This document shows, in pieces, positions 4,069 through 44,200 of a stretch of 64,000 bases of DNA. Position 1 is the first letter of the stretch. Each line of letters opens with the position of its first letter. The notes beneath the pieces were generated by a model. The model worked only from the letters and a program-made list of their open reading frames with translations, had not been told where the DNA came from and made no database searches. Source of the stretch: Amyelois transitella (lineage: Eukaryota; Arthropoda; Insecta; Lepidoptera; Pyralidae); the NCBI RefSeq assembly GCF_032362555.1, contig NC_083508.1, positions 11,685,001-11,749,000 on the forward strand. The letters run 5' to 3'. The translations under genes and the position numbers were made by a program.

Positions 4069-4280
4069 CGCCCTCGCACCGCGGCACTGCTGATTGTATG
4101 GTGTGTGTGTGAGCCGCGATGTTTTGTAAACATGCACATTATTTGATCAACACGGAGTTGCGCCGGCGGCCGGTCGCACTCGCACTAACACGAAACATTG
4201 CGATGCTATCGATTATTCATAAACTAGTTAGGCTGGACGCATACTATGCGGAGCGACTAATTGAAAATCCTCATCCACAT

Positions 4281-4548
4281 CCGTGTGGTTCCCGGCACCA
4301 ATACAAAAAAAGAATAGGACCACTCCATCTCTTTCGCATGGATGTCGTAAAAGGCGACCAAGGGATAGGCTTACAAACTTGGGATTCTTTTTTAGGCGTG
4401 GGCTAGCAACCTGTCACTATTTGAATCTCAATTCTATCATTAAGCCAAACAGCTGGACGTGGCCATTCAGCCTTTTCAAGACTGTTGGCTCTGTCTACCC
4501 CGCAAGGGATATAGACGTGACCATTTGTATGTATGTATGTATATACTG
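4281..4548 (+). repeat. SINE-like element, (TATG)n-tail family, near full length
   Basis: Plus-oriented: head CCGTGTGGTTCCCGGCAC, middle GGGCTAGCAACCTGTCAC, tail GGGATATAGACGTGACC then TGTATGTATGTATATA. It lies 213 bp upstream of the lipocalin start and faces the copy at 3645-3905. Confidence 0.88.
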
Positions 4549-5818: not shown

Positions 5819-5936
5819 AGATGGCGCCACCAATCACCACGTGATATTCAGCGCTATATTGGTTCCATATATAACAAGGCTTTGTCCAAGTCTCCTCCGT
5901 CCAGCAATTAGGTGTAGAGCTTTCTTGCTAGCCTGT
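5819..5936 (-). pseudogene. Decayed duplicate of the CIAO3 terminal exon end
   Basis: Matches 6058-6203 (the 3' part of CIAO3 exon 8): both begin AGATGGCGCCACCAATCACC and both continue with ATATTCAGCGCTATAT. The copy has lost about 30 bp and carries many substitutions. It lies 136 bp beyond the CIAO3 stop, so it is probably inside the 3' UTR. Confidence 0.75.
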
Positions 5937-6071
5937 TTTTAATATTATTTAATCAAAAGAGCCAAGTTAAAAAACCATGCTGTTATAATAAAGGAGGCGC
6001 TGAAATCATCAATGACGCTTTACCTAATTTCATTTGATAACTTATCGTTACAAGGCAGATGGCGCCACCAA

Positions 6072-9000: not shown

Positions 9001-12000
9001 GCGTTGATTATACCATTTATCGAGGATGGCTTTAGGTTATATAACACGCTACAACTATAAGGAGCGAAGAAATAATGGAAAATGTGAATTCCACCTGCGA
9101 CTGTCATGAGAGGCACAGTTCACCAAGCAAGCCATGAAGACACTACACCAACTCACTTGCGGTTATAACGCAGTCCACATCGTGACAGCCCAGTATGTCG
9201 CTGTAGAAGTCCTCCCTGGAAGCCTCCAGCTTCTTGTCGTAGCACGGCATGAAGGTCACGTGGTACACCTCGCCGGGTTCCACCTGAGACTGTTTGGAGA
9301 GCCACTGCTTAACCAGAGAACCCATTATTTGCTGGGCCGACTTCGTGCTCGATATGTAGGGCAGGATGAAGTTGCCGTGAGTTTTTTCGGCGTAACACAC
9401 CCAACCTGGTAACAAGAGATAGATTTATTTTCAAAATTGGATACAAGGTATCACTTATTGACGTCACATCACTTAAATCTAATTATATAGAGTACCAAAG
9501 CGTTCCAAAGCGCATGTGTAGAAGAAGCGGCGGAACAAACTACACTGCAGCATTTTCACCGGACGTCAATTAACAAATATAGATCTCTTAAATATAAATC
9601 GTGGACGAATGCAAATTATCTACATAAAAAATGTGAATGAGAATAAAAATACATATAAGTATATATAAATAGATATAATGGAACTGTTACATATGTATAT
9701 GATACACTTGAATTGTAACATATTAATAAAAAAAGGAGGTTCAATTATACTTAAAAAAATAATGATATACTGGTTCGGATCCCTTCGACGCCCACGCACC
9801 AATGACTCCTTACTGAGTTAAAAACATAAAACAGAACAATATCGTGAGGTAACCTGTAATTCAGGCAACTGAATGTGTATGATCCAATGTGAGATAAGGT
9901 TTCTGTGTTAGGTGGCGGAAGTCAGACGTGTCTGACCTGACTTACCCACACCAGGATCTTGGTCACCAACTGGCCCTGAAGATAGAAGATGAACCCGAGA
10001 CTCACACCAAGAGCATGATGAAAGAAATAGTAAAAACATAATCAAACCTGGACAGGAGCTGGCCAGCATCGGAAGATGTTTCCCGTCGGGATTGCTCTGG
10101 TGCTCCTGGTACCGCTGGAGGAACTCCTGCTGAGCTTCCAGCAGCGAGAGATCTTCAGCTATTGTCATGTCCAGCACCAGGTCCGCGCCGAGACTTTTGA
10201 AGTATCCTTTAATATAATAGTCATATTCATTCATATATTCATGTATATATCCCTTGCAGGATAGACAGAGCCTGCAGTCTTGAAACACTGACGGGCTATG
10301 TTCAGCTGTTTGCCTTAATAATAGAATTGAGATTATTGTATAGAGAGAAGAGGGGAGTGAGAGAACACTGTCGTTGCCGTCGTGACGCATCTACTATTCA
10401 TTTATATTGTAGTACATGTATGTTTATTTATTTAATATTTGTTATTTTATGATAATATGTTTTCAGTTTATTTATATCAGTAAGCTTATATCTTATTAAT
10501 TATGTATACAAGCCAATACTTTTCTTTACATTTTCCTGTCATAGGCCTACTGGAAGAAATTTCTCTAGAAATAAGTAGTGCCCTTGTACTGAATTTCTCT
10601 TTAGTTTAAGTTCTATTCTTATTTTTTTTCTGTTGATGTACGAGGGTGGTTTGAAAAATTCTCGGCCCGTCTAAGAAAACAACGATAAATAAACAAAAAA
10701 ATATTTTTATTTTTCTACATAATCCCCTCTTGTCTCAATACACTTATTTAATCTATATTCTAGGGCTTCTATGCCACTCTTATAGGCCGATTCTTCCAAC
10801 TCGTCGAAAAAACGTTCCGCCTTAGCTATGACCTCTTCATTTGTGGAAAATTTCTTTCCAGCCAGGTGTTTTTTCAAATTAGGGAACAGATAATAGTCCG
10901 ATGGTGCTAAATCCGGTGAATAATGGTGATGGTTTAATACTACAAAACGCAGTTCATGGAGTTTAGCCATTGCAACAACTGACTTGTGCACTGGTGCATT
11001 ATCCTGATGAAAAAGGATTTTTTTTTCGCCAATCCCGGGCGTTTTTCACGGATTTTTTCTGCTAATTTATCCAACAGGTTAGCATAGTATGGGCCTGTAT
11101 TAGTTTGTCCTTTCGGAAGGTAGTCAATAAAAATTATTCCCTTGTAATCCCAAAACACGGATGCCATCACTTTTCCTGCAGACTTTATCGCCTTGGCCTT
11201 CTTTGGAGGCGGAGAACCTCTATGTTTCCACTGTTTTGATTGTTCTTTTGTTTCAGGAATATAATGATGTATCCAAATTTCATCGGTGGTAACAAATCTT
11301 CTCAAAAAATCGGCGGTATTTGACCTAAACAAGGCCAGAATCTCACTTGAAATTTCAACTCTGTTGAGCTTTTGTTCGGCGGTCAGGAAACGCGGCACCC
11401 ATCTTGCCGAAACCTTTTTCATTCCAAGTTCATTGGTTAAAATATTAAATACCCGCTCGGTTGAGATCCCTATAGTGTCACTTATCTCTCGCACTTTTAA
11501 TCTGCGGTCGTCTAAAACCATTTTATGGATTTTATCGATCATTTCTGGCGTGGTGGACGTTGAAGGCCTTCCGCTCCTAGGGTCATCTTCGACGCTTTCT
11601 CTGCCTTGTTTAAATAAAGCTACCCACTTTTTTATCGTCGAATACGAAGGCGCAGATTCACCTAAAGTGTTATCCATGTCTTCCTTAATTTGGCTAGGTG
11701 TCATATTTTTTTGACGAAATATTTAATCACGGCTCTTACTTCGGTTTTTTCCATTTTTCCGGTAGAGAGTCAGATTAGCTCAAACAAAAAATCGTAAAAA
11801 AATAATCACACAACCTATCACAATGAAATTTAACACACTTGTAAATAAAGAATCAATCTATCGAATGAGTATATTCTTATTTTTATTCTACTCTCAAATC
11901 TAGGTTAGGCCGAGAACTTTTCAAACCACCCTCGTACATAAACGTATAAATAAATAATATCAAACAAAATGTATGTATGTAAAATGAGCAGACACATTCT

Positions 12001-13186
12001 CAATTTCTCAACCAACTCAAAAAACAAGTAGGTTCAATATAAGATTGTTTCTTTTTTAAAATATAATTATAGTGCACGTTGGTGTCTACCTGCAAGCCTC
12101 CTGACAGCCTCGTCAGGTGTCAGCTTGTAGCGTGCCGCCAGGGACAGCGTGGGCTGCGGTGACAGAGATATCACAATGAGGTTCACATTTTTCGTCACCC
12201 CTTTGTTGTCTGTATACTTTTTCTCTGAGAATACTCTGTAAAATAACAAATCGTTAACGATATAAAGTGTGCAATTTGTTACTTTACATTAATTATGTAT
12301 AACCCATATGATGGCTCAAAAAGATTGTACACACATATAACAAATAAGTAAATGAAACAACACATATAATCACGTCTATATCCCTAGCGGGGTAGACAGA
12401 GCCACCAGTCTTGAAAAGACTGATAGCCCACGCTCAGCTGTTTGGCTTAGTGATCAAATTGAGATTGAAATAGTAACAGGTTGCTATCCCTTCGCTTAAA
12501 AGAAGAATCCCAAGATTATAAGCCTATCACTAAGTCACTTTTTACAACATCCGTGGGATAGAGAAGGAGTGGTCTTATTCTTTTTTCTAATGGTGCCGGG
12601 AACCACACAGCACGATGAAACAATAATGTCAATATTATGACAACTTACCTAAGAAGCTCCTCTTGGCTTTGCCTTGTGACCAGCACACTCTCAGCCGACG
12701 TGATGCAGCCGCTGCATGCGAGGCAGTCCGCCAGCGTGATCTCCACCTTCTGTAGCTTCTGCTCACGACCACTTGATATATCAAAGTAGCCATCTTCACC
12801 TATTTTGATCTTGGCGCCAGTTTTTGTTTTCGTCTTCTCGATTTTAACTGGTTTTATGCATTCCTGTAAATGTTTAGTGGATTTAGGAATTTCAATGATC
12901 CAGTCATATAAACTAAGTGTATTAGGTCATTCACCATTGAAAACAATAAAGACACCTTATTAAGAGAAAAATAAAGACACAAATAAATTTAAAATGTGTA
13001 GTATGTAATATTATGTAAGATATCCATATATATAAGATATATCCATATATATGAGATAATTTAGTGGATCAAGATAATAATTATTTATGTTTACAAACAT
13101 GTTGAGGTTATATGACTTACTTGTGATGGAGTGATAAAATCATCCAAATCGGTAAGTTGCAGGGCTCCACTGAATCTAGATGCCAT
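6072..13186 (-). CDS. CIAO3: Cytosolic Fe-S cluster assembly factor CIAO3/Nar1 (NARFL)
   Basis: Hydrogenase-like protein of the CIA pathway. It passes 4Fe-4S clusters from the CFD1-NBP35 scaffold to the CIAO1/CIAO2/MMS19 targeting complex in the cytosol (family knowledge). Exons on the minus strand: 13186-13121, 12863-12649, 12235-12090, 10206-10048, 9405-9157, 8873-8669, 7205-7048 and 6313-6072; 1440 nt, 479 aa, close to the human 476. The N-terminal cluster ligands are C24 and C69-x2-C72-x2-C75. The H-cluster-like ligands are C194 (SSCPGW), C250 (MPCYDKK), and C397 and C401 (ACPSGCLNGG). The C-terminus [15 protein letters not shown] with its final Trp is typical of the family. Exon 6 is GC- and Ala/Gly-rich compared with its neighbours. 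Introns carry many repeats; intron 3 holds a mariner. Transcribed divergently from DNAL4. Confidence 0.96.
6735..7000 (-). repeat. Two SINE-like fragments, head to tail inverted
   Basis: 6735-6820 is a degraded plus-oriented 3' half (GAATCTCAATTTCACCATTAAG). 6826-7000 is a minus-oriented 3' half (ATGGTCACGTCTATATCCCT ... GGTTGCTAGCCCATCGCC). They meet at their tails. A (TA)n run follows at 7014-7029, just before the donor of CIAO3 exon 7. Confidence 0.7.
7279..7495 (+). repeat. SINE-like element, tail lost
   Basis: Head TTGTGGTTCCCGGCACC, middle ATGGATGTCGTAAAAGGCGA; the 3' end degrades to GGGCTCTGTTAAGCCCCC. In CIAO3 intron 6. Confidence 0.8.
7747..7918 (+). repeat. SINE-like element, 5' truncated
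   Basis: Begins at the GGCGATGGGC segment and ends CCCCGTAAGGGATATAGACG with a short TATG tail. CIAO3 intron 6. Just upstream, 7660-7715 carries an RTE-like stub (CCCGGGCGAATTTGCGCTAC). Confidence 0.75.
8163..8600 (+). repeat. Cluster of SINE-like fragments
   Basis: 8163-8180 is a reversed head (GCCGGGAACCACACGGC). 8243-8330 and 8507-8600 are two plus-oriented 3' ends with CTACCCCGCAAGGG; only the first keeps a (TATG)n tail. All in CIAO3 intron 6. Confidence 0.65.
8909..9088 (+). mobile_element. Helitron-like element, 3' truncated
   Basis: Starts TATACTAATATTACAAAGC as in the copies at 2609 and 21475, and breaks off after AATGGAAAATGTGAA without the CTAG end. It begins about 35 bp upstream of CIAO3 exon 6. 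Confidence 0.65.
9421..9571 (-). repeat. Interspersed repeat, (TCTAT)n-tail family
   Basis: The same roughly 150-bp unit occurs at 56586-56728 and 59531-59683, and in part at 53222-53290. Landmarks are GGAACAAACTACACTGCAG, ATTGACGTCA and a tail TTGAAAATAAATCTAT. This copy is in the sense of CIAO3, and its tail runs into the exon 5 acceptor (9405). Confidence 0.75.
10236..10336 (-). repeat. SINE-like 3' fragment
   Basis: ATATATCCCTTGCAGGATAG, CAGTCTTGAAACACTGA, TAATAGAATTGAGATT. Lies 30 bp upstream (gene sense) of CIAO3 exon 4. Confidence 0.6.
10470..10640 (+). repeat. Interspersed repeat interrupted by mariner
   Basis: Shares ACAAGCCAATAC/GCC and AAATAAGTAGTGCCCTTGTA with 30660-30850 and, reversed, with 57380-57490. 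In the 30.7-kb copy the sequence runs on through GATGTACA; here the mariner splits it at that TA. Confidence 0.65.
10641..11934 (-). mobile_element. mariner-family (Tc1/mariner) transposon, DD34D
   Basis: 1294 bp, flanked by TA on both sides (10639-10640 and 11935-11936). Terminal inverted repeats of about 27 bp start CGAGGGTGGTTTGAAAA and differ at one position. Length and structure match a complete mariner. It is inserted in CIAO3 intron 3 in the same orientation as the gene and inside an older repeat (10470-10640). Confidence 0.95.
10707..11754 (-). pseudogene. mariner transposase, two frameshifts
   Basis: The DNA-binding half has HTH segments ([20 protein letters not shown]) and the linker signature [11 protein letters not shown]. 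The catalytic residues are intact: TTDEIW, HQDN and APSD, with 34 residues between the last two Asp (DD34D). The frame breaks twice. At about 11710 the start ATG (11754) goes out of frame in an A run, and at about 11026 the frame shifts again in a second A run. Each break is explained by one missing A. Otherwise there are no stops, so the copy is young, or the breaks are sequencing errors in homopolymers. Confidence 0.9.
12359..12612 (-). repeat. SINE-like element, nearly full length, diverged
   Basis: Minus-oriented from TCACGTCTATATCCCTAGCG to the head GTGCCGGGAACCACACAGC. Lies about 37 bp beyond the donor of CIAO3 exon 2. Confidence 0.8.
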
Positions 13187-24197: not shown

Positions 24198-24525
24198 ACA
24201 CCGTCTTATAAACATCTTAATATTAACACGAAAGTGAGTCGCTAATAGTTTAGTTGTCGTACGCGGCCGCTCTGACGTCATCGGCACTAAGGGGGGAGGG
24301 GGCAAAACAAAACGAGAAACGAGGGTAGATTGGCACCATTTTGTCATTACACCGTCTTATAAACATATTAGAATTAACACTTTATTCTTACCATGCTAGG
24401 ATGGTGGCTAGAACTGAGTCACTATTAGCGCGGTCGTACGCGGCCTCTCTGACGTCATCGAGACCTTCGGGGGGAGGGGTGAATCAAAACGAGAAACGAG
24501 GGTAGATTGGCACCATTTTGTCTTT
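24198..24525 (-). repeat. Two decayed tandem copies of the GIT last-exon end
   Basis: Copies start at 24198 and 24349 (ACACCGTCTTATAAACAT) and repeat the 24526-24720 sequence that spans the GIT stop codon. Copy B still reads DDVREAAYD on the minus strand, against DDVRAAAYD in the true exon. They share GAGAAACGAGGGTAGATTGG, which the true exon lacks, so A and B arose from one another after the first duplication. Confidence 0.8.
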
Positions 24526-24605
24526 ACACTGTCTTATAAACATCATAGAATGAACACTTTATACTTACACTTATACTACACCGTAGTGTAGTAGTAAGGT
24601 GTTCG

Positions 24606-27600
24606 CTAGGATGATGGTTGAAAGTGGGTCACTAGTAGTTTAGTTGCCTTGGCGAGGTCGTACGCGGCCGCTCTCACGTCGTCGAGCGCGGCGGGCGGGG
24701 CAGAGGAACACGACGAGCACAGTTCCGCACAAGCGGAGCGGAGGGACGATAGCACTGCTTGTAGATCGCGATCGGGGCATGTCTGTTGAGAAAAAGCACA
24801 ATAAAGTTTTCTAAAATATTTCATCTTAGTGTTTAAGTTTATAATTTTTTGTACGAAGAAGGGTTCTTTCGTTTATTTCTGATTGAAGTATAAATACAAC
24901 CTCCGACTCAACATCGTCGGTCGCGCGGTTCCCCAGGCATCACACCAGCCTAGCGGAAGATCTTCCCTTTGTGGCGGTCGCGTCTAAACTATCGCTCCAG
25001 CTACATGCTTATCAGTGTCTTCATTTACAGTACATACCTGTGGAAAGAGCAACAGTAGTTCTCTCACAGCTTTCCGTATACACTCAGCGTGGTCCCTCAA
25101 CCTCGGCTGCCTGTCCCGGGCCGCTGCCCACAGATCCTGTATAGCTCTCGTCACAGTCTCAGCCCTCCGTTGGACTGAAAGAGGCTCAGGCATCTCCGTT
25201 GCTTGCAACGGATCAGAGTCCGAACAGCCTTCTAGAGCACTCGCTGTGAGGGAACGATCGAGTCCGGATAATGTTGTGAGCTGAAATTTATTTTGATAAG
25301 TTAAAACTAGATACAAATCTACATCAGAACCTTGGTTTGCTTAAGACCCAAAATAATATAGTTTAAAATTAATTAAAGCCTTTTCCTCTTAGATACTGGA
25401 CTTAGGTTAGTTTTTAAATCTAGGGGCCTTGTTCCATGTTATGCTAAAACATTAAGATGTCTACTGTATTAGTCGACACACCGATTGTGGCAATTTTTAC
25501 TGCCGAGAGAGGTTATGTTCTTTACGCTAAAAACCGTTAAATATCTACATAATCGAGTTGTTTTAGCTATACTTATATTCTTTTTTATTAAATTTGTTAA
25601 ACAAAATACTCTAAAACTACAAATTAGCACTACGGTAAAATTAGTGAAATTAATGATTAGTACCTGGTGTTTAGTAACTTGCCAATTACTCTTTGGTCCC
25701 TCCCTAGTCTCAAACATACTGACCGGCCGTTGCACGCTTTTCAACGGTTGCCTCATATCGAGTTCATCCGCACCGGTTAGTTCCTCCGTTTCTAAACTGC
25801 GCCCCCTCTCGGGAACTTTCGAAACTACTTCCATATTGCTACTCATGCTTTCGTTGACGGAAGTCTGCGACGTCGTACTATGATCATCGTCTATGCTATT
25901 GGTCTTCAAAACGCTATTTTCTTTAGTCAACTGTTCAACTATGGATTGTAGGTTTTTCAGCTGAGTTTTCAGCTCGGTTATAGTGGAATCTCTGCTGTCT
26001 AATTCTTTTTTTAGGTTTAAAAGTTCACTCTTCTGTGCTATGGGAACATGTTGGGGCAAGTTGTTGGGTAATTGCGTTCTTTGTAATTCTATATTGGGGG
26101 GATGATCGATGATAAGTGACGGGCTGTAAGTGGATGTGAGTGGTTCTCCGATCCGTGAGGGGATGATAGACATCTGCGGACAAAAATATGCAAATTTATT
26201 TATTAAGATCACAATTTATAGAGGATAATTTCTCAATGTAGATTAGGCACAGATATAGCTATGATGCGAGGTATTCAGAACAGAAATATTATCTGAAATT
26301 CGGGTGCGAATAACTATCGACCTTCTGTGCATATGAATAAACATCAAGATCAGGCAACATTCTCTGTCCCCTGGAGTGTCGTTTTAGTAAAACGTCGCAG
26401 ATAAGAGATGAGAGATAATTTAAAAATTTATAGATTAAGACAATCTTTATTTGGAGCGTGTGGTGCCCGGCACCAATATAAAAAAAGAATAGGACCACTT
26501 CATTTCTTTCCAACGGATGTCGTAAAAAGCGACTAAGAGATGGGCTTGTAAACTTGGAATTCTTCATTTAGGCGATGAGCTAGCAACCTGTCACTATTTG
26601 AATCACAATTATATCATGAAGCCTATCAGCTGAATGCGGCGTATCAGTCTTTCAAGGCTGCTGGCTCTGTCTACCCCGTAAGGGGTATAGCCGTTATCAT
26701 ATGGATATGTAATTATTTGGACTAGTTTTAAAAGTTAAAAGCGGACGTGGGTTTATCTATAGACACGAGATCTAACAAGTAGCCGTCAGAGAATACCGAG
26801 CGGCAAACTTGCTGTATAGTATTGCTACTATTTTACATTCAGCAAGTCGTCGTGACAGAATTGGCGGGTTCAATCCCGACAGACCTACATTAGTTGTTAT
26901 ACATACATCAAAATCAAGTCGTCGTGACAGAAGTGGCGGGTTCAATCCCGACAGACCTACATTAGTTGTTATACATACATCAAAATCAAGTCGTCGTGAC
27001 AGAAGTGGCGGGTTCAATCCCGACAGACCTACATTAGTTGTTATACATACATCAAAATCAAGTCGTCGTGACAGAAGTGGCGGGTTCAATCCCGACAGAC
27101 CTACATTAGTTACTATACATACATCAAAATCGGTCGGCGCTAAAGCCGCGTAGTCCTCGTCGGAGGCCACGGAGTCGTAGAGCGGCTCATCGTCGGAGAT
27201 CTGAGAGAAGTGGCGCAGGTGGCTCGCTGACAACATCGGGTTCAATCCTGATATACCTGCAATGATATATGATAGGTTCAGCTGTTTGGCTTAATATTAG
27301 AATTGAGATTTAAATAGTGACAGGTTGCTAGCCCATCGTCTAAAAGAAGAACACCTAGTTTATAAGCCTATCCTTTAATCTTCTTTTACGACATCCATGG
27401 GTGGCGGTTGGAGTGGTCCTATTCTTTTCTAGAGGTACCGAGCGCCGCCAGCTCGGCGCCCGACAGCCGCGCCAGCTTCTGTATGTATGTATGTACTGAC
27501 CCCTGGGCTGCAAGGTGGCGATGTGCTGCCGCCGGGTGCCGTCCAGCAGCACGTCCCGCAGCAGCGCCGCCAGCTCGGCGCCCGACAGCCGCGCCAGCTT

Positions 27601-30600
27601 CTGTATGTATGTATGTACTGACCCCTGGGCTGCAAGGTGGCGATGTGCTGCCGCCGGGTGCCGTCCAGCAGCACGTCCCGCAGCAGCGCCGCCAGCTCGG
27701 CGCCCGACAGCCGCGCCAGCTTCTGTATGTATGTATGTACTGACCCCTGGGCTGCAAGGTGGCGATGTGCTGCCGCCGGGTGCCGTCCAGCAGCACGTCC
27801 CGCAGCAGCGCCGCCAGCTCGGCGCCCGACAGCCGCGCCAGCTTCTGTATGTATGTATGTACTGACCCCTGGGCTGCAAGGTGGCGATGTGCTGCCGCCG
27901 GGTGCCGTCCAGCAGCACGTCCCGCAGCAGCGCCGCCAGCTCGGCGCCCGACAGCCGCGCCAGCTTCTGTATGTATGTATGTACTGACCCCTGGGCTGCA
28001 AGGTGGCGATGTGCTGCCGCCGGGTGCCGTCCAGCAGCACGTCCCGCAGCAGCGCCGCCAGCTCGGCGCCCGACAGCCGCGCCAGCTTCTGTATGTATGT
28101 ATGTACTGACCCCTGGGCTGCAAGGTGGCGATGTGCTGCCGCCGGGTGCCGTCCAGCAGCACGTCCCGCAGCAGCGCCGCCAGCTCGGCGCCCGACAGCC
28201 GCGCCAGCTTCTGTATGTATGTATGTACTGACCCCTGGGCTGCAAGGTGGCGATGTGCTGCCGCCGGGTGCCGTCCAGCAGCACGTCCCGCAGCAGCGCC
28301 GCCAGCTCGGCGCCCGACAGCCGCGCCAGCTTCTGTATGTATGTATGTACTGACCCCTGGGCTGCAAGGTGGCGATGTGCTGCCGCCGGGTGCCGTCCAG
28401 CAGCACGTCCCGCAGCAGCGCCGCCAGCTCGGCGCCCGACAGCCGCGCCAGCTTCTGGCGGCCCTGGTTGCGCGGCGCCGACAGCGCGGGGTTCACCGGC
28501 AGGAACACCACGCCGCTGCGCTCCAGGCCCAGAGCGCTGGTCTGCCAGACTGGAGGGGTTACACTTTTATCAACATATCATTATTAAGAAATAAATAAAC
28601 AAATATTGTAGAGAAAGAATTATTGAAAGGGCGTTGTGACCAAGTTATTGATAAATGCTGGACTGTACTTTGACCGCAAAAATTTTAATGGCGATTCAAA
28701 GTGGCAATGCGGCTAACATTTTGGGCACGCTATTAGAGGTTGAAGATCGTTTGACCTTGAATTCATTGACATTTAATGTTTACGAACATGTCAAACAATC
28801 TATAATATGGTTTTAAATAGTCATATTTATTTTAATTCTTATTATTGTCAATATCTTGTTAGAAATGTGATTAGAAAGCATCACTTCAATTTTAATATTT
28901 ATATATATTAATATTTTATTAAGAAAGAACAAAGGATCTGTAAATCTTGTACAAAAAGTGATCTTAACAAAATCTATAATATTTTTTTTATGATTTAAAA
29001 AAAAATATTTGAAATCATTACAAAAATTTCTTAATTTAATATTTACTCTCTTAATATTTGCATAAAATACAACTGGCAACTCACTTGCTTCTGTTTCTCG
29101 TCGATCGATTTCGTCGTAAATATCCATGACCAATTCTTCAAAAAGTTGATTAGGTAGCTGTAAAAAAAAATATTTTTTTTTAAAGTCACAAAGAATAAAT
29201 AATTAAGTGATTACTTAATGTGTAATGCAATCCTCAGTGATGCACAACAAGAACACAAAGAAGAGCACGACAACTACTCTCACGAAAAGAAGCCCCGCTG
29301 GTAACATTTCGGATAAATCTGCCCGCTGCTAAACTTCTTAGGCAATTTATAAACTTGCGGTTCTTGTTATTTTCCGAGGATATATCTTATATATAAAATT
29401 CTCGTGTCACAATTTTCGTTCCCGTACTCCTCCGAAACGGTTTGACCGATTCTCATGAAATTTTGTGACCATATTGAGTAGGACTGAGAATCGGCCGACA
29501 TCTTTTTTTCATACCCCTTAGTGTCCACCCTTAAATTTTTTTTAACTAGAAATTACTTAAAAATATTTATATGGCAAAACAACGTTAACCGGGATAGCTA
29601 GTATTTATTTATATTCCTTATAATGAACCTCATTACACATTGTAACATACCAGCTGCAGCTTCCCGCGGGCCGCCTTAGCGACGTCCGTCATCTCGTGCG
29701 TGTCGTGCGCGCGCGGCGCCATGTAGTGCCGCCCCGACGAGTGGTCCGGCTTCTCTCCAGTCAGGAAGTAGATCATCCGGTCCGTCGCCTCGTATACGAG
29801 TTCGGTCACACGGTCGGCGAGCTCTGAATGACCGCCTTGTCTATTGAGGAGGAGAGTATTATAAAAATTTACAGCTGATTTTAAACTTATACTACGCGTT
29901 GGTTTATACTATTTACAAATACTACAGGTATTAAACGCGCGCGTAATGTACCTTTATTTTATCTCGAATTATTGTAACATGATTCAAAACGATTACAATA
30001 TGTCGCGTAAGGTAATGATTGCAAATGATATTCGATTTTTAATTATACAGTTTAAGGATTATAAACTTACAGGATTGTTACTTAGATTTAGTGCCATATA
30101 GAAAAAAATCTGACTGTATTGACTATTTATTTTGTATGACTTTCCATTTATTTATCTCATAAAATTAACAGTGATACACTACAACTTTATGGTAAGTAAT
30201 CCCATAATGCAACATGTAAAATTAACTTCTTTACAACCAAAACAATGTAAGTTGTCTGACACCGTTGTAACCTTTCAACTAGAAAAAATAAATTGTACCT
30301 TGCACAATCCGAAGGTGTGTTCCCGGCGTGGTCCCTGGCGGTGGGGTCAGCGCCCCACGACACCAGCAGCTCCGTCTGCGCCGGCTGCCCCGCGCGACAC
30401 GCCACGTGCAGACACGTTGTGCCTTTCTCCTGAAGATTTTATAAAAAAATATATACATATAATACACTGCTGAACCAATACCCACATATTACAGCTTTAT
30501 GCAGTAGACAAAATCATCTTTACTAAACCTTGTAGGTCATATTTTAAATGGAAATGAAAAGGCAGATGACATATTCAGTGATAATGACAAGTTGCTAGTC

Positions 30601-32018
30601 CATCATAAAAAAAAGAATCCCTAACCTGGTGTGTGATTGACATTTGGAGGAAGAAGCCTTTGCCGCCATATTATAATTATGTACACAAGCCAATGCCTCT
30701 TTACATTGTCTTGTTGTGAGCCTACTGAAAGAATTTCTCTACAAATAAGTAGTGCCCTTGTACTAAATTTCTCTTTAATATATCTTCTAGTTACTTCTCT
30801 TTAAGTTCTATTCATATTTTTTCCTGGATGTACAAAAATAAATAAAATAATAACTAAAAATTAAATAGGTACATCCATGAAACATTTCATATTTCACAGA
30901 TATATCTACCTATTTAATTTGAAAATGATCAAATAAATGCTAGCAAAGGAAAGTATTTATATGCCTTCACCAGGCTTACATCTATTACTGCTTAAGCTCT
31001 CACTCACCTCAGAAATACGATAATAATATAAAAAAATATATTGGCATAAAGCCATTTTGGCAAAACATTGTGACGTCTTTTCTTTTTAGTGGTACTAGTC
31101 TATCCCTACACAAGATGTTTAAATAAATGCAAACATAGGAGTTTACATTTATATACCTGGTTGTAATAGTTAGGATCTGCTCCTTGTGCCAGCAGTCTCA
31201 TAGCAGTATCCAGTGAAGAGCTCCTCACTGCACTGTGGAGTTGTCTTCCAAGCTCACTCGGAGGCTCATCCCGCCTTGCACGCAATACATACGCCAACCT
31301 CAAGTGTTTGGCAAGGATGAATTCTGACTTAATAGGGCTAAAAAAGGTTAAAAAGTTTTTTATAAGTTTTATTAGAACAATTTTTTTTACTGTTTGGTCT
31401 GAAATTTAACAGGCTTATATGCTTATTAAAACCTGGTTGCAAAATACAAAATTACAAACCATTCTAGATATTCAGGTAATTCTCTTAATATTCCACATTG
31501 AGTAAATCTGTGTCAACAAAATAAAAAGAAAAGTGTGTGTTGAAATTTTTACTCACTGTAGTGGATCTTTAGGCTGTGGTTTCTTCCTTAAATGTTTAGG
31601 TGCTGTTGTGTCTAATAAAGAGTGTTCCCAAATGCTATTCACATTCTGTGCTGTCAGTGCCTGCACCATCTGAAGGTTTTAAATTATGTTAAATTAGGAA
31701 CATTGAAAAACAACATAATCAATATTGTAGACAGGCTTACTGCAAGTAAAGAAGGTGGCCATGACCCTTGGCGCAAGGATTTCACGTGGGATATGTGTCG
31801 CCCCATACTCCGGTGTATACTGCAGCATTCGGCACAAAGCAAGAGCCCACGGTTGATAGACGCCCATGATGGATCTGTGTCAATGAACAATTGCATGAAA
31901 CCTTCGGCAAACCAATTAACTTCGCCAATAAACTAGAACACCGCCCCAACAGACCTGATGCTCCACAATCAGCGCATACTTCCGCTGATGAACGGTGCTT
32001 AGACCGTGATATCATCAT
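24606..32018 (-). CDS. Git: ARF GTPase-activating scaffold GIT
   Basis: Scaffold that inactivates Arf GTPases and carries PIX and paxillin to focal adhesions and synapses (family knowledge). Exons on minus: 32018-31955, 31874-31741, 31669-31557, 31337-31157, 30429-30299, 29840-29651, 29157-29085, 28549-28355, 27256-27123, 26173-25664, 25280-25038 and 24782-24606; 714 aa. ArfGAP zinc finger C15-x2-C18-x16-C35-x2-C38 with Arg finger R43 (CSIHRSMGRHIS). Ankyrin repeats at about 130-210 (TTCLHVACRAGQPAQTELLV). Spa2-homology segments at about 270-360 (EELVMDIYDEIDRRE; NQGRQKLARL). YDSVASDED near 392. Coiled coil about 432-470. C-terminal FAT-homology bundle about 580-714 (AAAYDLAKATKLLVTHFQ). All junction phases agree. 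Exons 8, 9 and 12 are each followed by tandem copies of their own ends (separate entries). Which donor of the exon 8 array is used is not known; I chose the first. Confidence 0.95.
26457..26722 (+). repeat. SINE-like element, near full length
   Basis: Head GTGTGGTGCCCGGCACC, then AACGGATGTCGTAAAAAGCG, tail CCCCGTAAGGGGTATAGCCG. Antisense in GIT intron 9. Confidence 0.8.
26844..27131 (-). repeat. 72-bp x 4 tandem array: compressed GIT exon 9 copies
   Basis: Units start at 26844, 26916, 26988 and 27060 (AAGTCGTCGTGACAGAA). They are nearly identical: one base differs in the first unit and two in the last. Read on the GIT strand, each unit is a 50-nt segment beginning GTCTGTCGGGATTGAACCCG (exon 9 begins GTATATCAGGATTGAACCCG) and ending GATTTTGAT like exon 9. 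The segments are joined by 22-bp linkers that start GT, contain CTAAT and end TAG. Complete mini-exons with both splice sites lie at 27100-27051, 27028-26979 and 26956-26907; the fourth lacks its donor. The whole array is also open without stop, reading 24-residue repeats that contain SGLNPPLLSRRLDFD. Confidence 0.93.
27271..27430 (-). repeat. SINE-like element, truncated, between the two GIT arrays
   Basis: GTTCAGCTGTTTGGCTTAAT, GGTTGCTAGCCCATCGTC, GGAGTGGTCCTATTC. Sense to GIT; it ends 14 bp before the exon 9 acceptor and abuts the 122-bp array on its other side. Confidence 0.8.
27440..28456 (-). repeat. 122-bp x 8 perfect tandem array: GIT exon 8 end plus donor
   Basis: Eight units start at 27481, 27603, 27725, 27847, 27969, 28091, 28213 and 28335, plus a partial unit at 27440-27480. 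No base difference seen between units. On the GIT strand each unit is the last 100 nt of exon 8 (AAGCTGGCGCGGCTG ... CAGCCCAGGG), followed by a 22-bp linker that begins GTCAGTAC, continues as (CATA)n and ends CAG. The unit has no stop codon in any of the three minus frames, so about 1 kb stays open. The unit nearest exon 8 is the true exon end. Confidence 0.95.
29385..29602 (+). mobile_element. Helitron-like element ending GATAGCTAGT
   Basis: Includes TTCTCGTGTCACAATTTTCG and CGAAACGGTTTGACCGATTC, a lepidopteran repeat often seen with a CTAGT end. In GIT intron 6, 49 bp beyond the donor of exon 6 (gene sense). Confidence 0.5.
30660..30850 (+). repeat. Interspersed repeat, uninterrupted copy
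   Basis: ACACAAGCCAATGCC, AAATAAGTAGTGCCCTTGTA, with an internal doubling of TTCTCTTTAA. Same family as 10470-10640. GIT intron 4. Confidence 0.6.
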
Positions 32019-32376
32019 TTTCTACTTTTATGGAAGACAGGAGTAGAGAAACAAGAAAAATCCTACGTTCTTAATTAATTTACAAGCTCATTTGATACAA
32101 AAATAAACCATCACGGATAATATGAAATGTCAAACTTGACAATTGTTGACAATTGACATTGGACGCACTGGTTATCGCAGAAAACGTAAACTTATTACAA
32201 CTAATTCTTTGTGTTGGCTACACTAATGTTTTATGAACTCGATATCGATAACTGAATAGTAATCGTATATAAATATCTGAGTCAAACACTAGAAGCGACA
32301 CGTCACTGGTTAATTCTGTTTGACAGCTCGCACATATTTATAGCTTTCGTGAGAAGGTTATTTCTTTGAAACTAAA
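32019..32376. promoter_or_regulatory. Divergent promoter, GIT / DDOST
   Basis: 358 bp between the two start codons. It contains an exact DREF-type element TATCGATA (32243-32250), common in insect housekeeping promoters, and ACACGTCA (32298-32305), which on the other strand reads TGACGTGT, one base off the unfolded-protein-response element TGACGTGG/A. Both motif calls are by eye. Confidence 0.6.
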
Positions 32377-35300
32377 ATGAAGAAATTTATTATTCTTAGT
32401 TTATTATCATGTCTTTCGTTTATTTCCGCTGTTCAAGAAACTTTGGTTTTAGTAGATAATCTTAATATAAGAGAAACACACTCTTTGTTTTTCAAATCTT
32501 TACATGGTAAGTGAATGTGTCGGCTATCAGCCGGTAGCAATTCCTTTTGTTTTTCGAAGGAATCAATTAAAACCATAACCTATGTTTTTACAGACCGTGG
32601 ATATGCTCTAACATTCAAATTAGCCGATGACTCCAGTATAGTCTTGTCTAAATATGGCGAATACTTGTATAAGAATCTGATCATCTTTTCGCCGTCAGTC
32701 GTTGAGTTCGGCGGTCAGTTAGATACAGAAGCGATCACCAAGTTTATAGACGATGGAGGTAACCTACTTATCGCTGGAAATGCCGCTGCTGGGGATATAT
32801 ACAGGGAGATTGCTTCAGAATGTGGCTTTGAGGTACCTACTTAAGTTTAATCAATACTACTCCACTACTTCTATATACCAACTCTTTCCCAGACGTATAT
32901 GCAAGAACTATATTTTTCCTCATGACATGCTTTTTAATTACACTTTTTTTTTAAATTATTTATGAATCTAAATTTAATAAGTTAATAAGTCTAGTTTGTT
33001 GTTTGTGTCAGACAAAATTGCTCTCATAACTCTCATCTCTCAGCTCTCATTTGGAACATCTGCAGATTATTTATGACTAAAAAAGAACATACATAAAGGT
33101 ATCATGCCACAATGTCTGCATACTTTTTCTATAACCAGTTGAAAAACCTACTGAAGAAACATTAATTAATTCAATAAGTTTGACAAGCTTTCATAAATTT
33201 TAATTAATTTTAACACGACTGCAATATATCCTATTTATCTCAGATGGACGAAGAGTCTGCAGCTGTAATAGACCACTTTAACTATGACGCATCAGACGAT
33301 GGTGAGCACACCAGGATCATCGCCAACCCCGCCAACCTGATCAATGCTCCCACCATAGTGGGGACTTCCAACACCCGCCCTCTGCTGTTTGAAGGCACTG
33401 GTCTCATTGTGGACAAGGACAACAGCTTGGTGTTGCCCATCTTGACCGCAGACAGCACAGCATACAGCTACAATCCTAAGAGTCAGGTAAGTAAGAAACC
33501 TAGAAGAGGCATTATCTGAGTTTCCATGCACCACAGCATCACATCCTTAGCACCTTATGATCAACACCAACTAATATAAATGCAAAACTAAGTTTGTTCC
33601 CTCTTCATACATTATCCACTGAACTAATCTACTTGAAATTTTGCATATATATAATAAGAAATCTGGACATAGAATAATTTCATACATGTAAAACCATAGT
33701 TTCCATGGCATTTGCGAAAATCCTGTATTCTTTTGCATGTAGTAAGCTAAATTCACATGGGCGAAGTTAATAACAGAATAACAGTTTCTAGTCCATCACA
33801 TATAAGAAGAATCTCAAGTTTATTAGCCTTTCCCTTAGTCGCCTTTCACAACATCCATGGGAAGGAAATGAAGTGGTCCTTTTTCAAAATGCAGGGAAGT
33901 GTAACTTAACCCTCAATCTACATTACACTTGACATTTCAATGCAAACAGGTAAAAGAGTACCCCCACGCCGTCGGGCGCAAGACTGTCCTGATAGCGGCC
34001 CTGCAAGCCAGGAACAACGCTCGCATTGTGTTCAGCGGCTCACTGTTCTTCTTCTCGGATGAGGCTTTCACTGCTACCGTCAACAGGGTTCATGTTAAGG
34101 TGGGTTGTAAATATTATTGCTGTATTACAAATTTTTTTATGAATAAAAATAAGATTTGATAAAACATAGTAGACTTAATCTTTTGGAAAACATGCAATGG
34201 TAGTTGTATGGTTAAGTTTAGTGGACACCAGATTTCAACAGCTGAAAATATATTCGGATATCGCTTTTTCGCTTTTATTTTGATGGGAAATGGATCAATG
34301 GTAGTATCAAGTGATAAAAACAGCTTCGCCTATGCCATGGTATAGGGCCAGGGACTTATTCTAATGCTTGCATTATGATATCAAGCATATGAAATATAGA
34401 AACTGACCAGTTATTTGAGCCACAAAAAGTTCCTCATTTTTCTCTCCACTTTCTCCAATCTATGATAAATACTGATTAATTGATAAAATAATTCCAGGGT
34501 GACCAAGCGAAGGCCGAGCCGGCTGGTAACAAGGCGTTGGCTCAGCACCTCAGCGCGTGGGTGTTCGGCGAGCGCGGCCGCCTGCGCGTGCGCAACGTGC
34601 AGCACATGCGACAGGACGACCAGAAGACATCAAACACTTACACCATTACCGACACTGTCGTGAGTGCCTCTTTTCATTTGTGGTCAGAATGTTCCAACAC
34701 TATGAAATATATATATACATATATAATATATATATATATATATATATAATCACGCCTATGTCCCTTGTGGGGTAGACAGAGCCAACAGTTCTGAGCGGAC
34801 TGATAGGCTATGAAAAATTTTGATCAAATTTTGAGGTCGTTAAGCGCATATTCTTCTTGACTTATTTGAGACTTTCTAAATAATTCAGTTAGTAAATAAG
34901 ACAAGAGAATATGCAAATAAAAATAATTTTGTGATCCCATGTGTATAGAACGCCTTTTTGAGTTACTTTATGTCATGTGCACCATTTCAATGGAGCCTCT
35001 CCTTATTTACACTTAAGAAGGCATATAACGAAAACAAAGGCATAAAAATTCCTAGAAGATTAAAATGAAAATCTATGCCACGTTTTATATTTTTCAGGTA
35101 TATAGAATTGAAATTGACGAGCTGCAACATGGTCAATGGAAGCCATTCGAGGCCACAGATGTCCAGTTGGAGTTTGTTCGCATAGATCCATTTGTTCGTA
35201 TCACCCTCAAGCCGAAACCCAATGGAGTGTACGAAGCAGTATTTAAAGTGCCCGATGTGTGGGGAGTGTACCAGTTTAAAGTGGACTATGACAGAATTGG

Positions 35301-38227: not shown

Positions 38228-41200
38228 ATGGATCCGTCGCGGCGGCAACGCACACAGACCAAGGCCACTGCGGAGGAGCAGGCTCTAGACCAGATAGCCA
38301 AAGAGGTAAGCTTTTTATTCTATAGTTCCTGTGTGAAATATGTAACATACATCTTACCTCAAAGACGATACTTTTAAAATTTTATATTCACACCATACCT
38401 TTAAATGTAAAAACTGATATTATGCTGCTATGTTGAAAGAAGACAGGGCAACCTTTAAACATTGTCTCTGCAACGCAGCTACAATCATGCAAAATAATTT
38501 ATTTATTTATATAAACTTCATTGCACAAAATACAAATGTATAGCACTTTTTTCTAGAAGCATTATCTACCAGTCAACCATTGGGTCTGACAGAGATTATG
38601 AATATTTTAGATTTATTGAAAATATATTGAATTTTAAGAAACAGTGTGATAGGGGAATGTTGTGATGTGAAAGCATATAAAGTAACAGGAGTAGAAAAGA
38701 GTATGTTAAGCAATGGTCATGTGGAGAGTGTGGATGAAAAGGTCGGATTGGGAAGGCCTAGATAAACATACCTTGATCAAAATAAGGACATCCTGACAAA
38801 AGATCAGGTTAAGAGTAACCAAAACTGCATAAATTGCATGAAGTGAGTTAAGAATGTGAATGAAGCGGAAGAAGTATGCAGAAATCGTGGCAAGTGGAAA
38901 GATGTAGTGTCTTACCTTCGCTTACCCCTCCAGGAAAACGGCGTGATTTTATGTATGATTTTATAAGTAGTGGAAAATATGTGAAACAAAATGACTGATG
39001 ACTTAAAATTATTTTTCTGATAATTTTTCATGTTTTCAAAACGATTTGACCTAGGGCTTGAATATCGGATCATTTTTCAATTCCGGAATTGAGTTCTGAT
39101 ATTAAGCAATCCAGTTCCGGAATTCCGGAATTCCGGAATTTGAAGCTTCCTTCTAAAATGGCATACAACTATATTATAATGAAACTAAGGGCTATTGTTA
39201 TAAGTAGAAATAAAAAACCATTAAAAGAGCTATTTACTTTAATAAAATTACTAATTAAATAAAAATTACCCACAGCTCAGATAGACTTCTGTTGGTAATG
39301 AAATTTTAAAAAAGTTAGTGCATCTAAACTGTTGTCTTTCAACGAACTTCTCACACGGCTACAAACGTTTGAAACTGCTGAAAACGCGCGTTCAGCCTCC
39401 ACACTGGTAGGTGGAATTGTTTTTAAATATTCGAAACATTTAGTCAGATATTGACCTCTTCCGCCGCCGTTTTCAAATACCGCCATTTCAACTCTTAGCA
39501 AACTTTCCAGATCAATATTTGTTGTTTTCTTTTTACTTTTCATAGTAACTCTTCGTCTCTGAATAGTTTCTTGTAATTTTTGTTTCATACTCATTCCTTG
39601 TGCTTCTTCATTCACGTTTTCTTCAGCAGACTTCTCACAGTTTTCTTCTTCCGGGCTTAGTGAATCGTCCAACCTTTTAATTATTTTCACAATTTCTTCT
39701 AACATTTCGTTGCTTGTCGGTTTAGAAAATGTCTCACGGTCAAAGTTGTCTTCGTGATAATCTTCTGAATCGTAAAGATACACCAAAACAGATGCTATAG
39801 GGAGACGTCTTTCCTTAATGCGGTTCCTAAGGCTTTGTGCCAGATTTTTGCTAATGTTACCGTTTTGGTTACTATCTAAAGACTTTAACATGAATTTAAG
39901 AGCTGTATCGGCCGTCATCAAATCAGCGTCTCTCTGACAAAGCGACTCTACAGTTATCTTAACGACATGAAGACTTTCGTGTAAAGCTTTAAGTACTGCT
40001 ACTGCTTCTTCATTGACAGGCACTACTATGTCTAAGTCTAGAAATCCTTTGGTGATAGCAGACCTGAGCTTTAAAAACCTTTCAATCATATCGCTTAAAC
40101 TTGACCATCTAGTTTTACAATCAAGAATGAGGTTCAGTTCTTTTCCATATTCTGCTACTACGTATTTTTGTATGGCTTCATTTTTTAAGCTTGATTTTCG
40201 TACTGACCTGACCAGCTTTCTAATCTTTTCAATAACATTTTCAAAGTTTAATTGTCTTTTTTCCATTTCTTGCTGTACAGAGGCCCCTTCAATCTCAAAA
40301 CCTCCAATTTCTTCGTCATCTTCATCGTCATTATCTTCTAATATCTGATCTTCATTTTCTACATATTCAGAAGCAGATATATCAACAATATCAGTTATAT
40401 CCATGGCCACAAAATCCTCCTGTCTCGTTTCAGTATCACCTCTTTCATTATATTCACTGTTTTCTTTTTTATATAAGACATCAATCACTCCTAACTGTAA
40501 GCCATGAGCCAGACAAATTTGATGGTAGCCCTTGTAATATCGCCCCATTTTAACCATAACTGCAGCCCCATCAGATGTTAAGCAAACAACGTCTTTGTCC
40601 AAATCAACAGCAAATTCTTTAAGATGTTGTTTCAAGTAATGGTATGCTGTTATTGCAGGCATACTGCCTACAATTCTCACAAGGCCGAGATTTTTGAAGT
40701 TATCCTTAAATTTATCGGAGTGTAAATTAACATTCATGTAACGTCTATTGCGGATTGATGTATACTCATCAAGCGATACAGAATATCGTCTTGTTTTATC
40801 TTGTGAAATTTGCTGTCGGAGTTGTTTTTTTAAGAATTTGTGCTGATTAAGTACAATGTCTCTTATAGCGCTACCAGACGCCGGCAAATTATATCCACAT
40901 TTGTGGAAAAGATCTCGAAGGTCTTCAGATGTGCAAAATTTACTGAAAGGAATGCCATCAAGAGCGGCCATCCTTGACACTTTTACAGCCAGCTCTAGAG
41001 ATGTGTCAAAAAAGGCAGTGATCATTTTAAGCTTTTTTGCTGCTCTGGGCATGCTGTTGCTGGTGCTAGGAGTAACGGAAGTACTACATTGAGTTTCTGA
41101 TTGAGACAGCAAAAGGTTTTTTTTCTCTTTCAGATCAATAGCGTGGGTAGATTTCAAATGTACATGCAAACCTGTTGTCGCACCACCGTGGCATTTTAAA

Positions 41201-44200
41201 ATTTTAAAGCATAATTTGCATTTACCGGATTGCCCATCTTCCGCCCTAAGAAAATGGTTCCAAACTGATGTGTCCGCTTTCCTTTTATTAAATTCCAAAT
41301 ATTGTGCGGGTTTTGATAGTGACCTGAAAGTAAATAAATTTCTGACTAATACATACTTATAAGATTTCGTATCGATAGAGAAAGAAAAGCTTTGTTATAA
41401 ACAAATTGTGCCATTCTTTACATATCATGCGACTATATTCTGTAAAATTATACGCCGATTTAGAATATTAGTAGTATAAAAACCACCCTATTCGAATTCT
41501 CAAATGAAAACTCAATGGCGACTAAATAATATAACTTATGCCCGCTCTACGCGTTCGTCCGGCATCGCCATGAATCGATATACATTGCCTACTTTGTATG
41601 TAGTAAAAACACGGCTCATTTTAAAACGTAAGTAATGTAAGTACGTTAATTCGGCAAAAAGTTCGCCGAATGTGTTGAACGCGGATTAGGTCTACGTGCC
41701 GCGCGAGCGACTGAACAGCAGCGCGCGTGGCTCGAGGTACCTACGGCTCGGTTGCTTAGCAACGCTGTCATGTTCGCGCGTGCTGCGAAGGCGGCATGCC
41801 TAGCAACACGATAATATTTAGGTGCGGGTGCGGGCGTACGTTATATACGTGCAATACAATAATCAAACTGAGATCTATTAATGACCAGAAAATAAACCTG
41901 ATAATTGTGTTATTTTTTGCATGACTATTCTGATATACGTTTCAAAACCCAATTTTTTTTGTTATTTAGTAGTAATTCGCAACAAACTAAGCAATGGCCA
42001 ATGGCCATACATTGAGTAGTACGGAATAGCAAGTTTCAAAAGTTGCAAACAAATAATGCCCGTTTCCGTCACATTCACATTTCACCAATAAGCATATAAA
42101 TAAAACATTTTACATTGCATGCGCAAGCAAAATCAAGCAAAAACCCTGGATGCTATAAACACCACCAGTAACCACACACGTAGACTTACGGTTTCTTAGT
42201 CACTTCTTTTCTTACGACTTTGTTTTTGCCAAACATTAGGTTGTCTCTGCGTCCCGTATATATATTACATACATACGAAGTGAACCGTTGTCGACCAATG
42301 AAATAAAATCAATATTTTACTTAAAAGTGAACAAGTATTGAATGTAGTTAATTCTGTAAAATAAGAACTTGAAACTTACATTTTAAATGTATTTATTACA
42401 CGTTCGATCGTTCTCGTTCGCGTGTGATTCTTGTAACGATCCGTATTCAAATGGCGGCGATGCGGGCGGATCGGCCAAACCGAAGCGACAGTTGATCGGC
42501 CGGCGCCGGACGTGCCGCGCTACGCGGACGTGCCGCGACTCAAGCTGCGTTTTTATTTTATTTTTTTTCAATATCGAAATACCGGTTTTGCTCATCCAAT
42601 TCCGGTATTTACAAACGATACTGAAATATGTCGGAATTCCGGAATTTTGTTAAAACCGGAATTCCGGAGCTCAAGCCCTAATTTGACCTCAAAGTGGCTG
42701 TTCTATTCTATTAAGATTTGACCTCAAAATATTTAGATATTGTTTCTGCAGTGGTACCCAAGTCTAGTCAATTTAATGACTGATGTAACATAATACTATG
42801 CATAACCTAATTTAATACCTACCTACATAATCTACAAATGAAGCCTATTAATTTTACCTCCAGCAATTAGTCACTCTGTTTGGTTAGGTCATAATCAAGT
42901 GGGTTTAATTAGTGCACATTGAGGTAAACACACATATTAAATTGTATTATTTTTATTAAGTTTTATACCAGCAACATTCATGATTCAAATCAAAAGTTTT
43001 AATTATGTAAATTAATTTTTACATACTTATTTTGGTTAAGTAATTTAAATTAAATATTAATGTCAACATGAATGAAACTCACATAATTTCATTTACTTTC
43101 TTGGCAGCATTTACTTTGCTCACTTAAACTTTTAATGATTTATACGGCGAAATTGTGCATTGATGTCACCAATCACTTTATCTTCTGATAAGATTCTAAA
43201 GTGAAAATGCATGATAACTTTTTTATCATTTTATATTAGTTCCTTTTTTACAATAAAAAAATATTATTGTACATTCTATTAACATACATACATTTAGTCA
43301 AGTCTATATCCTTGACGGGGTAGACAGAGCCAAAAGTCTTGAAAAGCTTAATGATGGAATTGAGATTAAAATTAAAAAAGATTGATATTGCCCATCGCCT
43401 GCAAGATTAGAACTTTAATATCCAAAGTTTGAAGGGGTCCTTTGATCAAGTTTTTACCCTGATACAATATTTTTGGATATGTATATCTCTAATTTAGGAG
43501 TTTTTAACTACCTAACATTTTAGTACGGGTCTTAGTCACATTGTTTTGATTGGTCACTCTTCATGACTCATGACTTGCTTAGCTTCGATAACCTTCCAAA
43601 AGGGACCGGGTAAATCGGTCTTCCTTAATCGTTACTCACCTCAAAAGTAGCGGTTTTAGCGGTTACTGGCGCCTAAATACGCGCGCACGCACCTTTTAAA
43701 ACAAAATAAGTTAAGCTTGTAATAAATAAGTAATGTCTTTCACCGATATTCCAGTGTTACATTAATACACTTATATCACATCTTTACAGGGTAGATAGAG
43801 TCTCAATTCCACAATAGCTTAAGTTTTCTAACAAATTCTGAATACCTACTCATTATTTACCAAAACTTTTTTAAACCGCGCAATTTGCAGTTTTTGTGTA
43901 TGCTTTGATTTGAAAGCCTCGATTATTTTTATTAATGAATGAAAAAAATATACGAAAAGACTTCACAAGCATCACTCGACGCGTTCTTTCTACCATAGTT
44001 AGGATAGAACTATGTTAAACTACAAATATCACTGAGAATGTTATTAAAAAAGACTTTCACTAATTCTAAACACTAAAGAGTCTACTGTCGTCGAGTTCGC
44101 GCTAAGCGAATGCAATTTGAATGCAGTTTGTGGACCTGACGCACATGCGCGATGCGGTTACCTGCGCCGGTGACACGATGGAAATAGACTTCCGCATGCT

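Follow-up and report, generated by a model that had tools for sequence, protein, structure and literature searches.

A 72-bp array of exon-end and splice-donor copies beside exon 9 of the Amyelois transitella GIT gene, a probable by-product of duplication across the donor

The intron behind exon 9 of the GIT gene of Amyelois transitella carries four tandem units of 72 bp; in three of them the last part repeats the exon end and its donor. We regard this array, with a probability of about two in three, as an intronic minisatellite that would have arisen by duplication across the donor of exon 9 and would be a by-product that is normally spliced out. The analysis covers the window, i.e. the whole stretch of 64,000 nucleotides of contig NC_083508.1 in which the gene lies, and 23 further stretches of the same genome.

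The array beside exon 9

The GIT gene and the features that matter here are as follows.

24606..32018, minus strand: GIT (ArfGAP) gene, 12 coding exons, 714-aa model with Pfam and structure matches
28355..28549, minus strand: GIT exon 8, 195 nt, ending at 28355 in phase 1
27123..27256, minus strand: GIT exon 9, 134 nt, GISGLNP...YDSVASDED...APTDFD
26843..27131, minus strand: 72-bp x 4 array found by TRF, beginning in the last 9 nt of exon 9, the remainder in intron 9
27051..27100, minus strand: exon-9-like segment of unit 1, 50 nt
26979..27028, minus strand: exon-9-like segment of unit 2, 50 nt
26907..26956, minus strand: exon-9-like segment of unit 3, 50 nt
26843..26884, minus strand: exon-9-like segment of unit 4, truncated, lacking the last 9 nt (exon end) and the donor

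The 12 exons, placed at 32018-24606, join into a coding frame of 714 aa with a single terminal stop. The protein has ArfGap, ankyrin (Ank), GIT_SHD and GIT1_C matches in Pfam, and residues 4-353 of the model match the GIT2 structure 6jmt (E 6.5e-121). Exon 9 needs two bases on entry and ends in phase 0. The exon borders given in an earlier note on this DNA (exon 8 end at 28355, exon 9 at 27256-27123, exon 10 start at 26173) proved right. The tyrosine of the YDSVASDED motif in exon 9 is the putative counterpart of tyrosine 392 of mammalian GIT1. Src-family kinases phosphorylate that GIT1 residue, which lies in the central region (PMC3974724). No retrocopy of GIT that would reveal a spliced form was found among the best candidates scored in a genome search with a 283-aa piece of the protein, all 12 matches (12/12) being at the GIT locus. 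The neighbouring gene codes for OST48 (OST48_N and OST48_MD in Pfam); the coding starts of GIT (minus) and OST48 (plus) stand head to head at 32018-32382 with about 360 bp between them, a spacing that suggests a common promoter region.

The anatomy of the array, its junctions, its frames and the identity of its donors can be read directly from the DNA. TRF reports a period of 72, 4.0 copies and 98% identity, hence head-to-tail copies of high identity as in a minisatellite, and the region has one match genome-wide (33 contigs, 327 Mb). Minisatellite units usually measure roughly 10-100 bp. Every unit consists of GTATGTATA, then GT or AC, then AACTAATGTAG, together 22 nt, followed by the exon-9-like segment, which has 50 nt in units 1-3 and is shorter in unit 4. 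In units 1-3 the segment reads GTCTGTCGGGATTGAACCCGCCACTTCTGTCACGACGACTTGATTTTGAT and is preceded by TAATGTAG and followed by the GTATGTATA donor; the earlier note had described just this, a 50-nt segment with a 3' splice site before it and a GTATGT donor after it in three of the four units. Its further claim that the segment derives from exon 9 is borne out by the similarity score of 37.5 between unit and exon, as against a maximum of 26 in 1000 dinucleotide shuffles; for this comparison the last 9 nt were removed from both, and 25 nt upstream were added to the exon.

The two parts of the segment differ in their relation to exon 9. The first part aligns collinearly with the exon apart from two gaps, of 23 and 6 nt, and lacks a third stretch that precedes the exon end; the centre, CCACTTCTGTCA, is read in a frame other than that of exon 9. 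The last 9 nt, GATTTTGAT, are, with the adjoining donor, identical to the end of exon 9, and exact copying within the segment is limited to these 9 nt. The 72-bp units are 97-100% alike, whereas the older copy of exon 9 has diverged from the exon. The 72-bp period sets in 9 nt before the end of exon 9, and unit 4 breaks off short of the exon end, the signature of n+1 copies. The presence of the segment in three of four units is thus explained by a tandem duplication anchored in the last 9 nt of exon 9, which gives the real end and three copies of it. On this sequence the supposed mini-exon is best read as an old, decayed copy of exon 9 joined to more recent copies of the exon end, rather than as a shortened exon preserved by selection.

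We therefore propose the following course. A copy of exon 9, now old and partly deleted, would have come to lie just downstream of the donor of exon 9. Later, a 72-bp segment reaching from the last 9 nt of exon 9 across the donor and into the old copy would have been repeated, which would place a copy of the exon end and donor at the end of each of units 1-3. Since the first copy, with the true exon end and the true donor, would stay intact, the extra copies would fall into the intron and would normally be spliced out with it. The order of these events, the use of the first donor and the absence of a function are what we infer from this arrangement. No new intron is evident in the array: the duplication crosses the donor, and from each unit donor to the next acceptor there are 22 nt.

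Exon-end arrays elsewhere in GIT and in the genome

Two more repeats in the GIT gene copy exon ends.

27441..28457, minus strand: 122-bp x 8.3 array, 100% identical, beginning inside exon 8 and lying in the intron just upstream of exon 9
24232..24568, minus strand: repeat of about 180 bp, 84% identical, copying the coding end and 3'UTR of exon 12

The unit of the first, slightly above the usual size range of minisatellites, consists of the last 103 nt of exon 8, the donor and 19 nt of intron, and the array ends in mid-unit, 13 bp from a copy of a dispersed repeat. The region has 8 matches in the genome, all at the GIT locus, and presumably it arose in a similar way, by duplication across the donor. 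The exon 12 repeat lies beyond the end of the coding region at 24606.

The exon 8 array bears on the question of which donor is used. Its layout resembles that of the exon 9 array, and 122 leaves a remainder of 2 on division by 3, so that in-frame donors, most simply the first, must be used if the gene works. Of the eight identical donors only the first, fourth and seventh preserve the frame, whichever of the four donors of exon 9 they are combined with. As five of the eight choices break the protein, chief use of the first exon 8 donor is the simplest assumption, and by analogy the first donor may be chiefly used at exon 9 too.

From elsewhere in the genome, 23 stretches of 10 kb (230 kb; L003-L021 and L039-L042, L002 being omitted as it lies in the window) were taken at arbitrary round-number positions, which is not a formal random draw. 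Self-alignment gave 10 tandem duplications in 19 of the stretches, none in the other 4, and 3 in the window. By homology 6 of these 13 are exon-derived, and five cross a donor, namely those at GIT exon 8, GIT exon 9 and in the genes for alpha-spectrin, a cadherin and a HECT ligase; the sixth is the exon 12 repeat. Arrays crossing an acceptor numbered 0 of the 6 exon-derived ones in the 230 kb sampled and the window. In the sampled arrays donor crossing was judged from exon homology and from the reading of the next exon.

L007:2724-3084, minus strand: alpha-spectrin array, 139 bp x 2.6, exon end and donor; the exon joined to the next matches spectrin in the PDB
L020:8915-10000 and L038:1-80: cadherin array, 65-bp unit, about 18 copies, 99% identical, exon end, donor and 19 nt
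L009:1260-1593, minus strand: HECT ligase array, 174 bp x 2, exon end and donor; PDB 6k2c, 1.3e-6
L011:298-1215, minus strand: degenerate array of about 20 bp, starting at the likely donor (CCACT|GTGAGT) of a Cys-rich exon

The cadherin array is identified by Pfam Cadherin (4.3e-10), and some of its copies have CTG in place of CAG. For alpha-spectrin, a census of the Spectrin family gave 75 listed matches without the known second copy in L007, a search too insensitive for this purpose. For the HECT exon, a later exon EFLEETIKRVFDP was found. The second copy of the HECT exon end is diverged (65% nucleotide identity over 153 nt) and open, and GC at third positions amounts to 96% in the exon and 49% in the copy. 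With pS of 0.80 against pN of 0.20 for the pair, as much protein was kept in 1 of 5000 uniform-mutation trials; this pattern looks like constraint on both copies, and synonymous change in the exon copy alone could also explain it. The other seven arrays comprise four AT-rich ones (24-26% GC), a dimer of the dispersed repeat, one in L016 that could not be placed, and that of L011, in many units of which a donor-like GTGAG recurs. The latter was left out of the counts, its exon having no firm family match, and arrays reported by TRF only (L016, 52 bp x 2; L018, 55 bp x 2.7) are outside the self-alignment list on which the counts are based.

In the donor-crossing arrays the intron part of the unit is short, with 19 nt in exon 8, 19 in the cadherin, 9 in spectrin, 21 in the diverged HECT pair (174 minus the 153-nt coding match) and 22 in the older exon 9 copy, if that copy begins at the exon start; the exon part has 46 to 153 nt. 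Periods are multiples of 3 in two of five cases (72 and 174) and not in the others (122, 65 and 139), where one in three is expected. Since this is near chance, the preservation of phase by the exon 9 array needs no special explanation. If both exon sides were equal, five donor cases against none would have a one-sided chance of 1 in 32, two of the five being in one gene, and the bias for donors over acceptors is thus a lead and not a proof. The simplest account of short intron reach and donors is survival: GC-rich exon DNA would be duplicated, and a duplication that includes the donor would do the gene no harm, since a donor still follows the first copy. Survival predicts arrays of exon starts as well, of which none was seen in the small sample of 230 kb. 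A hypothetical cause anchored at the donor, for instance DNA breaks where a polymerase pauses at the end of an exon, would be expected to produce such an asymmetry.

Three donor-crossing arrays in 230 kb would correspond to about 4,300 in the whole genome (95% range, about 880 to 12,500). We put forward tentatively, as an idea more likely to fail than to hold, that some process repeatedly multiplies the 3' ends of exons, taking along the 5' splice site and no more than about 9-22 nt of intron. It would have left perhaps thousands of donor-anchored arrays in this genome, across the donor (in exon 12, at the coding end) and not the acceptor. Each array would then offer a series of near-identical donors, the number of which could differ from one individual to another, and units with a length that is a multiple of 3, as at GIT exon 9, could give variants of protein length.

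Possible use of the array units

For the by-product reading of the exon 9 array, and not for a design peculiar to GIT, speak the donor-crossing exon-end arrays in three other genes, two of them with periods that are not divisible by 3. Against it, the downstream donors have the same 9-mer as exon 9 (7.6 bits) and the 72-bp unit is open in frame. Both points are what the best of the rival readings builds on, according to which splicing of exon 9 would at times use the donor of unit 1, 2 or 3 and lengthen the exon. The protein would then gain 24, 48 or 72 residues, predicted to be VCI(V/T)TNVGLSGLNPPLLSRRLDFD repeats between DFD and MSIIPSR. The identical donor 9-mers stand at 27123, 27051, 26979 and 26907, and those of units 1-3 reach 7.6 bits in a weight matrix made from 17 introns (11 of GIT, 6 of OST48). 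At least two competent-looking donors thus lie downstream of one acceptor, as in alternative tandem 5' splice sites. Such use would require no new acceptor, and all four isoforms are in frame: the unit is open through unit 3, and extension to the three donors gives open proteins of 738, 762 and 786 aa in addition to that of 714 aa. Local folding predicts that the donor 9-mer is only 2 to 13 times more accessible at exon 9 than in units 1-3, a difference that provides no strong reason for preferring the donor of exon 9.

The open frame itself says little. That the array is open from end to end, as had been stated before, holds for one sense frame, yet the signal is weak: 24% of shuffled units are open in a given frame and 60% in one or more of the three sense frames, and the unit is also open in one antisense frame. 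We have therefore rejected the open frame as evidence of selection on the array. Together with the neighbouring 122-bp array, which has a similar layout and a period that is not a multiple of 3, this makes such extension of exon 9 unlikely in our view. Any use that is made of the array would nevertheless more likely be through alternative donors, with a gain of 24, 48 or 72 in-frame residues, than through mini-exons.

An artefact of assembly or sequencing, with arrays absent from the animal or present there in another copy number, is very improbable. The arrays are known from one assembly only, and the 122-bp copies are 100% identical and end in mid-unit beside a dispersed repeat; however, units differ among themselves in the 72-bp, spectrin, HECT and exon 12 arrays, and the arrays occur at several loci, with different ages, on contigs of 11-13 Mb.

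The reading of the earlier note, mutually exclusive mini-exons that take the place of exon 9, fares slightly worse still, and we found its central claim unsupported. Several of its premises are sound. Both splice-site dinucleotides are present, the phase fits, and any of the three mini-exons, put in the place of exon 9, keeps the GIT frame with the final stop only. Double use would break the frame, as had been claimed: two mini-exons in a row (50 + 50) do so by arithmetic, and exon 9 followed by one mini-exon runs into a stop after 409 residues, as does the transcript with exon 9 skipped. Double inclusion would moreover be blocked by the 22-nt spacers, which are below the shortest of the 17 introns measured (71 nt). 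In this respect the units would behave like the members of a mutually exclusive cluster. Such members also share length and frame with their parent exon, whereas the mini-exon has 50 nt against 134 nt and an off-frame middle, and its use would drop the YDSVASDED segment.

The acceptors are the weaker part. They score 3.3-4.1 bits (4.1 in unit 1), compared to 8.4 bits for the acceptor of exon 9 itself (leave-one-out), and 35 to 38 of the 272 AGs in GIT introns, a number that includes the 11 authentic ones, score higher (35 above 4.1, 38 above 3.3). The 17 authentic acceptors span -0.1 to 12.6 in leave-one-out scoring, and because 6 of them are below 4.1 bits the unit acceptors are weak rather than excluded. 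Acceptor and donor of exon 9 are both intact, and a reading that involves donors only is simpler. On acceptor strength, the off-frame middle and the n+1 pattern, a mini-exon cluster was rejected as the main reading.

The dispersed repeat around exon 9

Exon 9 and its array are enclosed by two inverted copies of a dispersed repeat, which we take to be a helitron-like element.

27277..27401, minus strand: arm 1, ending about 20 nt before the acceptor of exon 9
26510..26634, plus strand: arm 2, inverted; the arms enclose exon 9 and the array

The arms are 81% complementary over 125 nt. As RNA, the segment is predicted to fold far better than 20 shuffles of it (z -13.35), and pairing of the arms is predicted by the minimum-energy structure as well as by the centroid structure. 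Inverted arms of this kind can promote the skipping of an exon that lies between them, or its circularisation, and those around exon 9 and the array could favour circular RNA or skipping of exon 9. After merging, the repeat is counted at 27 places in the window and at 117 in the 23 sampled loci; three sequence strings of it occurred in no paper of the collection searched. The window also holds long open frames for a transposase of hAT type (39277-41394; BED finger and hAT dimerisation in Pfam) and one of mariner type (10940-11722, minus; Transposase_1 in Pfam).

That this repeat, flanking exon 9 in both orientations, made the arrays is scarcely credible and was rejected: beside the inverted arms (26510-26634 and 27277-27401), copies lie 13 bp from the exon 8 array, 123 bp from the exon 9 array and 147 bp from that of spectrin, but the cadherin, HECT and exon 12 arrays are 1.7-1.9 kb away, and since 35% of arbitrary 300-bp stretches in the 23 loci are within 200 bp of a copy, a distance below 150 bp in three of five donor arrays is unremarkable and no closer than density allows.

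Relation to known systems and significance

Mammalian GIT2, a member of the same family, is reported in work by Premont in 2000 to be alternatively spliced; we know of no link between that splicing and repeats. Among described systems, the GIT array shares with tandem exon duplications and mutually exclusive exons that exon-derived copies lie inside the parent gene. About 10% of animal genes have tandemly duplicated exons according to a figure cited in PMC9013439, which seeks unannotated ones; unlike the exons treated there, the GIT array consists of exon ends with a donor and without a convincing acceptor, in the manner of a minisatellite.

In the potato RdRp gene a tandem duplication across an intron-exon boundary gave a new intron (PMC4974935). 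There too a local duplication moves a splice site and part of an exon elsewhere, but in that gene the acceptor side was copied and an intron was gained, whereas the arrays described here multiply the donor side, often to many copies, and would be expected only to make the intron longer. Expansion of minisatellites alters human gene structure, mostly in frame when coding (PMC2812944), and tandem repeats in exons or introns that change gene structure are common to both situations. The human cases were found as differences between paralogues, and the parts of that paper that concern them state no donor-crossing rule. Our own literature search, carried out mainly outside subscription journals, found no paper on donor arrays in introns or at exon ends.

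That new introns and alternative exons arise by tandem duplication across splice sites has been proposed, and few recent cases of it are proven (PMC4974935). Here, copies of the donor side of exons form tandem arrays in several genes. This recurrent class, rather than the mini-exon, is the part of interest, on a sample that is small (230 kb). For the exon 9 array itself the sequence leaves a modest chance of in-frame donor variants of GIT. Should donor-crossing arrays be common in one genome, they would provide many natural experiments on how the spliceosome chooses among identical donors, and would also allow a test of why the ends of exons, and not their starts, are multiplied.
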